Made by a program: the position numbers and the translations under genes. Below, one piece after another: positions 23,695 to 27,623 of a stretch of DNA of 33,144 bases; within the stretch, counting starts at the first letter, position 1; every line of letters begins with the position of its first letter. This stretch comes from Oscillatoriales cyanobacterium (GTDB lineage: Bacteria; Cyanobacteriota; Cyanobacteriia; Cyanobacteriales; Microcoleaceae): NCBI GenBank assembly GCA_004292745.1, contig RDXH01000085.1, positions 1-33,144 on the forward strand. Reading direction: 5' to 3'. The notes below the pieces were generated by a model. It was not told the origin of the DNA. It saw only the letters and a program-made list of their open reading frames with translations, and ran no database searches.

Positions 23695-26600
23695 TCAGCT
23701 TTTTATGGGCGGGCTTTCCGGCCCACCCCACAATAAACTTAATCTATGGTGGAACAGGCCGGAGAGCCTAGGGATTAAATCATCCTCGTCTGACTCAGAA
23801 GACAACGCAGGTAAATCCGGTTCAGATTCCCATGTAAAAGTTTCCGACTCCCAAACCTCCAAGCCATCCGAGAAATCAACTACTTCCCCATCAAACATCT
23901 GAGCCCACACCCCAGCAGCATTGACTACATCTTGGGCATCAGCCTGCACCGCCACAGATCGAGCATTTAAATCATTCCCAGAGGCGATCGACCCCTTACT
24001 CTGCCCCCCCGGTTCAGCAACATTTGACAGCTTGGCGCTAGTATTTTCAGGGGCTGGCGAGTGTTTTTGTGCTTCTCCCCTATTCGTGGAAAAATCCTCT
24101 AAAATTTCCGGTTTTTGTACCTGTTGATTCCCATCATCCACCGGAGTATAATTCCGAGAATTTCCCCCCATACGTCCGTTAGAATTTGGGAAATTCTTTG
24201 GTTCTAAACTATTAGTTTCAGTGGAATTTTTTAATCCCAATTGCACAGCGACTCGACGGTTAAAAATTTGCAAAAAAGCTTCTTCAATATTAGCTACTTT
24301 GTCTTTAACCATCTTGAGCAACTGTGGCGAATTAATTTTAATCACCGCCGCATCATTGCTAAAACTCACCAGATGTCCGTGTTGGCGAAGCAAGGATTGA
24401 GTACCGTGGGGGCGCACGCGAGTCAGTACCTGTTCCCACACTTGATTTAGATCGATTTCCCTAGGGGCATTAGTTGGTGCATAATTTGTGGCGTCAGCAG
24501 TTGGTATAGATTCTCGAATCGGTGCGGTGGATGTGTTTTCTGTGGGATTAGCCATAGGTGGCGAAGTCGTCGGAGGATGTTGCACATTCGGAATTGAAGA
24601 TTCTGCAATATTAGATATCTGACTCCCCCCCTTGCTAAGGGGGGGTTGGGGGGGGTGAATTTGTGCTGGATGAGTATTTTGTGCTGGTTTATTTACTGGT
24701 TGCTGCTGAGTTCTAATTGCTGAGGGTAATAATCCCAACAGCGTTACTTCCAGCCACAAACGCGGCTGAGTCGTGTTTTTAATTTGCACTTCGTGGGTTT
24801 GCAAATGTTTCTGGCCAGCCAAAATTAACTCGGCATCCCAATGGCGGGCAAAATTGCAAAGTTTATCCCAAGTTCCGCTGGTTAAAGCTACTAAATCTGA
24901 CCGTTTTGGTGCTGCTTTGGCTATCAGCAAATCTCGGTAAAAACTGGCGAGATTCTGAAGTACAATCAGCGGTTCTCGACCGCGATTCATCAGGTGACGG
25001 GTCATGTCTACTAACGCTGTGGCATCGTCTTTGTCAATAGCTTCTAGCAGTTCCATTAAGTCGTTTTCTGGGACTGCACCGACTAAATCCCAAACTTTTT
25101 CGATTGTGACTTCACCGGGAAATAAACTTAGTTGATCGAGCAAACTTTCGGCATCTCGCAGTCCTCCTTGGGCGAGTTGAGCAACCATTTGTACTGCGTC
25201 GCTGGCAATATTGATATTTTCTAATTGGGCGATTTTGTGCAGGTGGGCGGTCATTGAGTCGAGGGCGATGCGGCGAAAGTCGAATCTTTGACAGCGGGAA
25301 ATAATGGTCGGTAAGACTCTTTGAGGGTCTGTTGTTGCGAGGACGAATACGACGCGATTTGGTGGTTCTTCTAAGGTTTTTAAGAGAGAGTTGAATGCCT
25401 GGGTGCTTAGCATATGGCAATTATGAACCAGAAGACCGTTAGCGACAAAGTTATGGTTGTCTTCTACTTCTATGTCATAAACTTTCTCTACCCCAACGAC
25501 TTTTACAGATTCTACCTTCTCCGAATTTGTAATCCATTGAAGGGATTGAATACTGTTTAAAGTCTGCGACCCATTTTCTGCTGGTTTCAGCGCCCCTATG
25601 TATGTAGTGGTAGGTTTTACCTGTGTTAGACCTTGTGTAAAACTTGGTTGTTGTTGGGTATCCCAAGCCTGTAAGCCACTTGGCAATGAGTTGATTTTCT
25701 TCCCCAGAATATCCTTCTGTATGAATTTGAATATTTGGACTTCCTTCTGGCGAAATGCTGAGCGATCCATCATCCATGTACCACCAAGTAAGTCCTTCGG
25801 GAGTGATGCAATCGAGCCAATCCATTGTGACGTATTTTCCTTTTCCGTTGGGTTTAACAGCGTCAAAGACATCTCTAAGTTGGGGATGGCAGACTGTGTT
25901 GCAACAGACTGATATATTTCCGTATCCTTGGTTAGGTGTAACTCGTAACTTGGGTCGCAGTGTCGAAAGGCAAGAGGCTTTGTATTCCAACCATTCCCGC
26001 TGCGTTTCTCCGTGTGTCCAGCCCAATCTTGGAAATCGGCTATATTTATTTGGGTATGTGATAGAACCGTCTCCAAGCAATGTTCCGTAAATGAGTCCGA
26101 GTGTTTCTGGTTGCAAAACTTCGGCATTTGCCAAGAACTTTTCCGTTCTTGCATCCCAAAGTCCATGTCTTTTTTTATAGGGATGTCGCTGCCAATGAGA
26201 CTGAATGCTCTTAATCCCTTTGCCTTTTTTTTGTAAAAAGTCTGGTATTTCGAGTTGTTCTCCACAGCCACACGCACAGAGAGGTCGGATGGCTTGAGCC
26301 TGTTCGAGAATAGAGGCAAAGTCGTAGGATTTTTGTCCGTAGGTATTCCCGTAAAATTGATGTCCTCTGGCAAATCTCCGCAAGCGTCCATCTGTTCCAA
26401 TTTTGTGAATGAGGGTGCGGCACCCACATTCACAGGGGATAGTATCTTCACTCCTTCTTTTACGTCTTTTGCTGGTATCCATCCTTGTTCGGTTCTGATT
26501 AAGTGATTGCCGGTGCATCTGATTTCTCGATGGCTCGTCTTAATAACCAGTGTTGGTTTCTCACCCTGTTCTAACCACCTTAAAACTTTTTTAAATTCCC

Positions 26601-27096
26601 AAACTTCTGAGCTTTCGTTATAGCTGAGGACTTTTTTTCCTTTGATTTTGGGATTATCTATGCGCATTAGACCTTCGCTAGTTTGCACCTGAGAATCACC
26701 AGTCAAACACTCGTCGATCACATATACTTTATAGCGGCATTGTACGGGGGAAAATTGAGCGCGTTCGATCAAATCCCGGATGTTATCGACTCCTGTGTTG
26801 CTGGCGGCATCAATTTCGATTACGTCTAGTGTGGAACCTCTGGCTATTTCTTGGCAAACGTTGCATTTGCCGCATGGTGTGGGGGTTGGGGCACCCGTAG
26901 AAATACAGTTGAGGGATTTGGCAAAAATTCGAGCACTAGAGGTTTTACCGGTGCCTCTGGGGCCTGTGAATAGATATGCTGGTGCTATGCGATCTTGGAG
27001 GATGGCGCTGGTGAGGGTTTGGGCGATCGCCTCTTGGCCTACTAATTCGGCAAAAGTCTGGGGGCGATATTTGTGGTGGAGGGGTTCGTAGGTCAC
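23695..27096 (-). CDS. dnaX: DNA polymerase III subunit gamma/tau, interrupted by an intein
   Basis: 1133 codons, of which 430 are an intein, leaving a 703-aa clamp-loader subunit. The AAA+ domain has Walker A GPRGTGKT (45-52), zinc cysteines C64, C75, C78 and C81, and Walker B VYVIDE (124-129). The intein begins at the next residue, C130, and resumes with CHMLSTQAFNSLLKTLEEPP, which carries the sensor and SRC region (ISRCQRFDF). Domain III follows, then a long, poorly conserved tau-like C-terminus rich in Pro, Asn and Ser. That tail includes a repeat-derived HPPQPPLSKGGS (DNA 24624-24656). Splicing must occur to make an active ATPase because the insertion splits the Walker B/sensor block. 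Confidence 0.96.
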   Translation of the reverse strand: MTYEPLHHKYRPQTFAELVGQEAIAQTLTSAILQDRIAPAYLFTGPRGTGKTSSARIFAKSLNCISTGAPTPTPCGKCNVCQEIARGSTLDVIEIDAASNTGVDNIRDLIERAQFSPVQCRYKVYVIDECLTGDSQVQTSEGLMRIDNPKIKGKKVLSYNESSEVWEFKKVLRWLEQGEKPTLVIKTSHREIRCTGNHLIRTEQGWIPAKDVKEGVKILSPVNVGAAPSFTKLEQMDACGDLPEDINFTGIPTDKNPTTLPLFSNRLKPSDLSVRVAVENNSKYQTFYKKKAKGLRAFSLIGSDIPIKKDMDFGMQERKSSWQMPKFCNQKHSDSFTEHCLETVLSHTQINIADFQDWAGHTEKRSGNGWNTKPLAFRHCDPSYELHLTKDTEIYQSVATQSAIPNLEMSLTLLNPTEKENTSQWIGSIASLPKDLLGGTWMMDRSAFRQKEVQIFKFIQKDILGKKINSLPSGLQAWDTQQQPSFTQGLTQVKPTTTYIGALKPAENGSQTLNSIQSLQWITNSEKVESVKVVGVEKVYDIEVEDNHNFVANGLLVHNCHMLSTQAFNSLLKTLEEPPNRVVFVLATTDPQRVLPTIISRCQRFDFRRIALDSMTAHLHKIAQLENINIASDAVQMVAQLAQGGLRDAESLLDQLSLFPGEVTIEKVWDLVGAVPENDLMELLEAIDKDDATALVDMTRHLMNRGREPLIVLQNLASFYRDLLIAKAAPKRSDLVALTSGTWDKLCNFARHWDAELILAGQKHLQTHEVQIKNTTQPRLWLEVTLLGLLPSAIRTQQQPVNKPAQNTHPAQIHPPQPPLSKGGSQISNIAESSIPNVQHPPTTSPPMANPTENTSTAPIRESIPTADATNYAPTNAPREIDLNQVWEQVLTRVRPHGTQSLLRQHGHLVSFSNDAAVIKINSPQLLKMVKDKVANIEEAFLQIFNRRVAVQLGLKNSTETNSLEPKNFPNSNGRMGGNSRNYTPVDDGNQQVQKPEILEDFSTNRGEAQKHSPAPENTSAKLSNVAEPGGQSKGSIASGNDLNARSVAVQADAQDVVNAAGVWAQMFDGEVVDFSDGLEVWESETFTWESEPDLPALSSESDEDDLIPRLSGLFHHRLSLLWGGPESPPIKS
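24624..24656. repeat. GC-rich palindromic repeat captured in frame in dnaX
   Basis: The plus strand reads CCCCCCCTTGCTAAGGGG followed by GGGTTGGGGGGG. On the coding strand it gives PPQPPLSKGG in the disordered C-terminal tail of the tau-like region. It is the same repeat type as at 3777-3808 in the ThDP enzyme. Confidence 0.8.
25420..26709 (-). mobile_element. DnaX intein, 430 aa
   Basis: It begins with Cys (CLTGDSQV, block A) at dnaX codon 130 and ends GLLVHN before Cys+1 (CHML), block G. Block B is CTGNHLI, with Thr and His at intein positions 66 and 69. Block F is VYDIEVEDNHNFVANG. All residues needed for standard Cys-type splicing are present, so it should be active. The stretch between B and F in this frame (about 340 residues) has no endonuclease motif and a composition unlike a folded domain. 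A complete LAGLIDADG endonuclease is instead read from the same stretch in the -1 frame (25475-26518). A DnaX intein is known from Synechocystis 6803. Confidence 0.95.
25475..26518 (-). CDS. LAGLIDADG homing endonuclease nested out of frame in the intein
   Basis: 347 aa, same strand as dnaX but in the -1 frame (its ATG uses the third base of a dnaX codon). Two zinc-finger-like CxCGC...GH units open it (C29, C31, C33...H53; C81, C83, C85...H108). The first LAGLIDADG helix is LGLIYGTLLGDGS (140-152) and the second LTWWYMDDGSL (243-253), followed by the family's SGEENQLIAKWL, so it is the LAGLIDADG_2-like class. The start lies in intein block B and the TGA in block F, so it exactly fills the place where in-frame endonuclease domains sit. 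A second ATG at 26482 is possible. No clear ribosome binding site is seen. Confidence 0.9.
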   Translation of the reverse strand: MHRQSLNQNRTRMDTSKRRKRRSEDTIPCECGCRTLIHKIGTDGRLRRFARGHQFYGNTYGQKSYDFASILEQAQAIRPLCACGCGEQLEIPDFLQKKGKGIKSIQSHWQRHPYKKRHGLWDARTEKFLANAEVLQPETLGLIYGTLLGDGSITYPNKYSRFPRLGWTHGETQREWLEYKASCLSTLRPKLRVTPNQGYGNISVCCNTVCHPQLRDVFDAVKPNGKGKYVTMDWLDCITPEGLTWWYMDDGSLSISPEGSPNIQIHTEGYSGEENQLIAKWLTGLGYPTTTKFYTRSNTGKTYHYIHRGAETSRKWVADFKQYSIPSMDYKFGEGRICKSRWGRESL

Positions 27097-27623
27097 GATC
27101 GAATATGGGTGTTATGTTAACTTGGGAGATGTGGTTCGATCGCACCATAGCTCAATTTTGAAAGCAAGTCCTCTGGAGGCGAACTTAGTGGAACGAAGAA
27201 CTCGTAGCATTTAGTACCTAAGTCTTTTGGGCGCTACGATCGTCCGGGCGATCGATTGTGCTCCTCAAAATTTTTTAGGAGCGATCGGAGAATTACTATT
27301 AATCTATGTAAATTCACTGATGTTTTCGAGAAAGTGCTCTGCTGAAAAAACATTTTTTCTGGTGGTACTGGTATAATACATAACAAATTATTAACCATCG
27401 CTTTTTGCCAGTGCAAGGGTGCAATTTTCCGAGATTTCGCGAACCTGCTTGCAGTTAAAGATAAAGTATTAATTAGAGGGTGCCCGTTCGAGTTGTAGAA
27501 ATCCAATTGTAGAAAGATTGTGGTAGAAAGAAGTCAAGGTGGCTCGAACCAGCGAGTTGCAATGTCATCTCCACTCAGGGGCATTCTATAAATATAGCGT
27601 CAAATTTTACCCTTTAAAAGCCC
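27097..27623. promoter_or_regulatory. Divergent spacer between dnaX and the membrane protein gene
   Basis: This 527-bp spacer must hold the dnaX promoter (minus) and that of the gene at 27624 (plus). I note HIP1-like sites and GCTCCT/AGGAGC pairing near 27260-27281. A 90-codon minus-strand frame (27234-27506) has no recognisable domain and a composition unlike its neighbours, so I do not call it. Confidence 0.4.

Follow-up and report, generated by a model that had tools for sequence, protein, structure and literature searches.

The dnaX gene (DNA polymerase III gamma/tau) of an Oscillatoriales cyanobacterium carries an intein whose homing endonuclease is apparently not a domain of the same polypeptide but a gene of its own, read from the same strand in the -1 frame. 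The locus lies on contig RDXH01000085.1 (assembly GCA_004292745.1); the whole stretch of 33,144 nucleotides (nt) analysed here is referred to as the window. As shown by comparison of the reading frames with those of relatives, the endonuclease gene sits at the usual site, between blocks B and F of the intein, but separately, and both frames are open and kept. We consider it probable that this separate LAGLIDADG gene, entangled with the dnaX intein, is translated by internal initiation and drives homing, and we hold the anatomy alone (two frames, an intein and a nuclease gene) more firmly than the mechanism as a whole. The host gene and its intein, with blocks A, B, F and G, comprise the following features:

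23695-27096, minus strand: dnaX, host open reading frame (ORF) of 1133 aa with a GTG start and without internal stop
26710-27096, minus strand: dnaX N-extein
25420-26709, minus strand: intein of 430 aa in the dnaX frame, defined by Pfam and sequence reading
23695-25419, minus strand: dnaX C-extein
26680-26709, minus strand: block A, CLTGDSQVQT
26479-26511, minus strand: block B, GNHLIRTEQGW
25441-25482, minus strand: block F, VYDIEVEDNHNFVA
25420-25440, minus strand: block G, NGLLVHN
25546-26421, minus strand: linker predicted to be disordered, dnaX-frame residues 97-388 of the intein (predicted local distance difference test, pLDDT, <50)

The nested frame comprises:

25475-26482, minus strand: likely extent of the nested gene for the homing endonuclease, in the -1 frame with respect to dnaX, with 335 codons and a stop
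26483-26518, minus strand: stretch by which the ATG first proposed as start extends the nested ORF upstream, open without intervening stop in 10 of 60 inteins
26360-26434, minus strand: first CxCGC...GH unit of the nested protein
26183-26278, minus strand: second CxCGC...H unit of the nested protein
26066-26101, minus strand: first LAGLIDADG motif, LGLIYGTLLGDG
25766-25795, minus strand: second LAGLIDADG motif, GLTWWYMDDG

The insert in the dnaX frame matches Pfam Intein_splicing (64.4 bits, cut-off 35.8) and, as read from the sequence, begins with Cys1 and ends in His-Asn followed by Cys at position +1, thus having both the domain and the terminal residues of an intein. It is inserted after the Asp-Glu of YVIDE and before CHMLS. 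No Pfam LAGLIDADG match was found in this frame at E<=1. By contrast, the nested frame matches LAGLIDADG_2 (72.4 bits, cut-off 25, E 5.6e-20), so that the element is not a mini-intein, which would hold no endonuclease coding sequence. The initial annotation, made from the sequence alone, had described an unbroken dnaX frame running through a 430-aa intein with four intact blocks and no endonuclease motifs, together with a -1-frame ORF of 347 codons that begins in block B, ends in block F and encodes two LAGLIDADG helices; our coordinates agree with it, and the separate profile searches that it proposed assign splicing to one frame and the nuclease to the other. Acidic residues D138, D237 and D238 of the LAGLIDADG motifs are invariant in an 11-row alignment, and the CxCGC units probably represent zinc fingers.

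Structure prediction gives the same division of labour. For the nested protein, pLDDT averages 81.4 and drops at the two termini and over part of the first finger; the model has 36 PDB matches at E<=0.001, headed by I-WcaI (3.7e-11) and I-SceI (3.9e-11), and also matches PI-SceI (1ef0, 1.2e-5). With its two helices, conserved acidic residues and modelled family fold, the nested product has the hallmarks of a LAGLIDADG endonuclease. In the model of the dnaX-frame intein, residues 1-96 and 389-430 mostly exceed a pLDDT of 89, whereas residues 97-388 stay below 50, and the product is predicted to be a folded Hint domain around a disordered linker of ~290 residues. The mean pLDDT of 46.8 is low, as expected if two thirds of the chain are disordered, and the low values may also stem from the shallow alignment (16 rows). 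The best match of this model is the solved DnaX mini-intein from Spirulina (7cfv, 8.1e-10). It could be argued that the insert is removed as RNA, i.e. that it is a nuclease-encoding group I or II intron, given that the solved structures closest to the nested protein are intron-encoded LAGLIDADG proteins. However, there is no Rfam match in 25000-27100, the splicing blocks are intact, the dnaX frame resembles a known intein and it is open in all 60 full-size relatives, which an intron would not need; we regard removal as RNA as very improbable.

These relatives come from 83 dnaX loci (L001-L083), which yielded 71 distinct inteins, 60 of them full-size (>=1100 nt) and 11 shortened. A contig scan contributed 67 confirmed loci from 107 candidate stretches, 53 cyanobacterial (L031-L083) and 14 of Bacillaceae type; its patterns were motifs of the nested protein, which biases it toward copies bearing them but imposes no selection on the dnaX frame. 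The latter is free of stops in all 60 full-size and all 11 shortened inteins, and 53 of the 60 have an unbroken nested frame. The register of the nested frame relative to dnaX is identical in all 60, with the endonuclease at offset 2 relative to the splicing domain, unlike in a bifunctional intein with an in-frame nuclease. Assembly or sequencing indels at both ends are the usual source of such patterns, and the window genome is a draft in 408 contigs with a single copy of the element. Nevertheless, a false frame difference is hardly conceivable, since the one register recurs in every distinct full-size intein, complete- and scaffold-level genome records among them, intein lengths in the dnaX frame are divisible by three, and a like arrangement exists in related phage elements, including that of Xanthomonas phage FoX3 from a record titled complete genome. 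For practical purposes, a sequencing artefact is refuted. Neither compensating indels nor relatives with a stop-filled alternate frame, the two outcomes that the initial annotation had named as fatal to its reading, were thus encountered.

Varying numbers of CxCGC units give the inteins sizes between 376 and 522 aa, both registers always being kept. Indeed, unit counts differ between L015, L019, L020, L021, L073 and L074 on the one hand and L016-L018 on the other, with neither frame broken. In the shortened inteins (L022-L030, L081, L083; 138-339 aa), the ends of the nested gene remain as relics, while the dnaX frame is open in all of them.

The full nested ORF (25475-26518) encodes 347 aa, but the gene probably starts within it. 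The initial annotation correctly placed the start inside block B, although the ATG it chose (26516-26518) is usable in only 10 of the 60 inteins. The ATG 12 codons downstream (26480-26482) spans the GGA and TGG codons of the block-B Gly-Trp pair and is found at this one position in 57 of 60 inteins, the exceptions being L069, L073 and L074, of which the last two have a usable ATG 12 codons upstream instead. For this reason, 25475-26482 is taken as the likely gene. Moreover, the Gly codon that creates the ATG is GGA in 44 of 45 inteins, compared with 27% of Gly codons nearby. At the other end, the nested stop of the window lies 58 nt before the intein end, as in 10 of the 51 intact, uncut inteins (L011 and L037, cut by a contig end, were left out of this set, which also served for the shuffle and identity counts); the commonest position is 70 nt before the end (29 of 51).

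A programmed -1 ribosomal frameshift into the nested frame and back would instead yield a conventional bifunctional intein with an in-frame endonuclease domain. The nested gene does occupy the usual endonuclease slot, from block B to block F, and dnaX is a textbook example of -1 frameshifting in other bacteria. However, a 20-codon look-back finds a nested-frame stop no more than 20 codons upstream of the ATG in 58 of 60 inteins, an in-phase -1 heptamer lies near the start in only 3 of 45, and, as the nested gene ends at a stop of its own within block F, a second shift would be needed. Furthermore, frameshifting does not require the dnaX frame to avoid stops, as it does throughout. Frameshifting thus appears unlikely.

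Both frames bear marks of selection. Synonymous shuffling of the dnaX frame (51 inteins, 200 times each) left the nested frame open in none of 10,200 cases (mean 14.1 stops), and a chance ORF is therefore rejected; when the nested frame was shuffled, an open dnaX frame survived in 5 of 10,200 cases (mean 5.8 stops, 0 observed). Mean amino-acid identity is 0.635 in the nested frame and 0.418 in the dnaX frame, the nested value being higher in 1274 of 1275 pairs. The phase of substitution switches at the edges of the nested gene: among 38 inteins of 430 aa with flanks, third dnaX positions hold 0.56-0.76 of the differences in the exteins and blocks A, B, F and G, whereas inside the nested gene it is the second dnaX positions, equivalent to nested third positions, that hold 0.49-0.53. 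Among 584 differences in 13 close pairs that do not overlap, those silent in the nested frame but altering the dnaX frame occur at 2.16 times the neutral expectation and changes silent in both at 1.88 times (n=9 differences only), compared with 0.81 for changes altering the nested frame alone and 0.55 for those altering both. Single differences that by themselves would create a dnaX-frame stop number 6 against 28.3 expected, each being offset by another difference. Finally, at fourfold sites (0.2-0.3 bin, 22 pairs) the nested gene diverges by 0.103, compared with 0.246 in exteins and 0.197 in intein blocks, and the dnaX frame therefore adds constraint. Such selection on both frames is that of a same-strand overlapping gene pair. 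Taken together, the identity, phase and substitution results indicate that the nested protein is the main target of selection and that the host frame chiefly requires the absence of stops. Thus, as shown by these sequence comparisons, purifying selection acts on the nested frame and stops are kept out of the dnaX frame, in keeping with the initial proposal that a second frame so long is very unlikely by chance and that the overlap is maintained, the host frame being obliged to stay open.

We propose that translation of the dnaX frame gives a precursor from which the Hint domain, with its floppy ~290-residue linker in place of an endonuclease, would splice itself out to leave DnaX, while some ribosomes would initiate at the internal ATG (26480-26482) and produce a free LAGLIDADG protein. 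The free nuclease would cut intein-less dnaX at the ...DE|CHM... site, and repair off the intein-bearing copy would carry the intein and the nested gene together. The two are entangled in that any indel putting the nuclease out of phase would disrupt an essential host gene at the same time; a nonsense change in the nuclease, by contrast, is invisible to the host frame.

Several observations weigh against this scheme. The Gly codon that creates the ATG is GGA in 10 of 11 shortened inteins as well, so that its conservation supports but does not prove a start. A search for Shine-Dalgarno sequences upstream of the nested ATG found scattered AGGA ~14 nt away and no consistent site, and a promoter scan gave one promoter-like site (2.3 expected) and none upstream of the nested ATG. 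Silent divergence of the intein blocks mostly follows that of the extein, so that no recent homing is demonstrated within the sampled set. Lastly, the nested frame contains stops in 7 of the 60 inteins (L010, L039, L040, L049, L051, L054, L055). These stops, along with the loss of nuclease parts in 11 of 71 inteins, would also be expected if the nested frame were a dead relic kept by recent descent and the dnaX-frame linker were now the part that matters. Yet nested identity to the window falls as low as 0.46 while the LAGLIDADG acidic residues stay invariant in all 11 aligned rows, nested-nonsynonymous changes are depleted in close pairs, and the dnaX-frame linker, besides its predicted disorder, is less conserved than the nested frame. 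A relic, although slightly more plausible than frameshifting, is accordingly also considered unlikely.

The occurrence of the intein is patchy. Its N-terminal part is matched in 50 of 388 genomes of the class (E<=1e-10) and the nested protein in 39 of 388 (E<=1e-5), and one family searched with the nested protein gave 4 matches in 50 genomes. Empty dnaX sites are present in a same-genus genome (YVIDEVHMLS) and in a same-family genome (YVIDECHMLS). The closest relatives belong to Microcoleaceae or Microcoleus; L031-L038, one of which is an Oscillatoriales, share 85-99% identity. In one genome, a second dnaX-like gene (L130, G084:C8:4500-8800) also contains this intein, at 57% over the intein part; the nested nuclease there ends shortly before the second LAGLIDADG motif. 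In the same-genus genome G277 (L134) and in L002, the dnaX frame stops early past the AAA+ part and homology resumes in another frame; in G277 the break is near a Pro-rich PPLxxGG stretch resembling 24620-24670 of the window. Natural frameshifting, repeat insertion or sequence error could explain these early ends. Distant LAGLIDADG proteins in Bacillaceae-type genomes (L084-L097) are encoded by ORFs of their own, mostly of 200-340 aa, with about 22-30% identity and 40% in one short segment.

A similar arrangement is found in viruses. Xanthomonas phage FoX3 has an unannotated LAGLIDADG ORF (L112:2390-3148) out of frame in the intein of its annotated helicase gp40. An alignment-query scan of viral contigs, to which scans with single phage queries added little, detected 71 related loci: 12 with the nuclease out of frame within a longer ORF, 29 with a long ORF in the same frame and 30 others. 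After near-copies L149 and L151 were set aside, the 12 represent 10 different elements (L147 being FoX3), hosted by SF2-type helicases and terminase large subunits. Their host frames contain no stops, against 2.9-17 or more expected (up to 18.6). Intein_splicing is above the cut-off in 4 of the 10 (L144/L100, L145/L098, L147/FoX3, L153), scores from 3.8e-4 to 2.8e-8 in 5 more and reaches 0.025 in L148. In-frame relatives include L101 and phage KLEP7. Helicase and dnaX inteins are both inserted after Asp-Glu and before Cys, and this similarity of site may have helped transfer.

The frame offset is the same as in dnaX in 3 of the 10 viral elements and the other one in 7. A tree of 24 endonucleases is weakly resolved: the out-of-frame label needs 4 changes and a single out-of-frame origin appears in 0% of 200 bootstraps, but well-supported branches force only 1 change. 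It is thus the two offsets, rather than the tree, that imply at least two placements of an out-of-frame nuclease. The initial annotation had offered two origins, invasion of a mini-intein by a free-standing endonuclease gene or divergence of the two frames under dual selection. Relatives that lie in frame, out of frame or in their own ORFs fit a nuclease joining inteins more than once, the tree favouring none of these states as the first. We lean, with less assurance than for the dnaX mechanism, towards regarding entangled inteins as a recurrent and largely unannotated class of mobile elements, in which a free homing-endonuclease gene overlies the endonuclease slot of an intein in another frame, in cyanobacterial dnaX as well as phage helicases and terminases, with two offsets and hence two or more placements. 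Being entangled with an essential gene would shield the nuclease from frameshift and deletion, and its separate translation would uncouple its expression, tuning and loss from splicing.

In the textbook view, an intein is a protein of two domains, its endonuclease being translated along with the splicing domain. In dnaX they are instead two genes that have about 1 kb of DNA in common, kept so across many cyanobacterial lineages. This is among the longer bacterial same-strand overlaps in which selection is measurable in both frames. The arrangement also makes the homing cycle testable, as nonsense decay of the nuclease is visible (the 7 of 60 inteins above), whereas an in-frame intein would lose the host protein. 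Surveys of inteins based on the host frame only will label such elements endonuclease-less, and nested genes like that of FoX3 escape annotation.

Compared with known systems, the dnaX element resembles bifunctional inteins of the PI-SceI type in having a Hint domain and a LAGLIDADG nuclease between blocks B and F. In the PI-SceI type, however, the nuclease is part of the same polypeptide, whereas that of dnaX is in the other frame, with its own start and stop. The closest solved folds, the monomeric intron endonucleases I-SceI and I-WcaI, match the nested protein weakly in sequence (E 0.013, about 20% identity), and differ in being intron-encoded and without CxCGC units. The Ssp DnaX intein of Synechocystis PCC 6803 resides in the same host protein as the window intein. 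It is known to splice in E. coli when engineered into mini or split forms (PMC3443213, PMC3620165) and is treated in a further, later paper (PMC10127266); one account (PMC3620165) counts it with the inteins whose endonuclease domains are putatively complete or partial, with no mention of the frame in the passages concerned. Our literature search, whose coverage lacks most subscription journals and the founding DnaX-intein paper of 1997, turned up no description of an intein with its endonuclease in another frame. The nearest precedent found is the ShiLan-type insert, which lies in DNA methylases of phages (Arsenault, Gosselin and Gogarten 2025, PMC11855218), likewise an out-of-frame endonuclease within an open insert and repeated in a genome note (PMC12613952). 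It also shares the lack of a known fold in the host-frame product and of a visible ribosome-binding site, but its nuclease is HNH and its authors found no splicing domain, neither intein nor intron. The dnaX element, by contrast, combines LAGLIDADG_2 with Intein_splicing and intact blocks, resides in an essential cellular gene, is spread across cyanobacteria and has selection measured in both frames. Finally, it is a natural counterpart of engineered gene entanglement: STALEMATE (PMC12455656) consists of sequence-entangled genes of synthetic design, whereas the entanglement in dnaX is natural and old.

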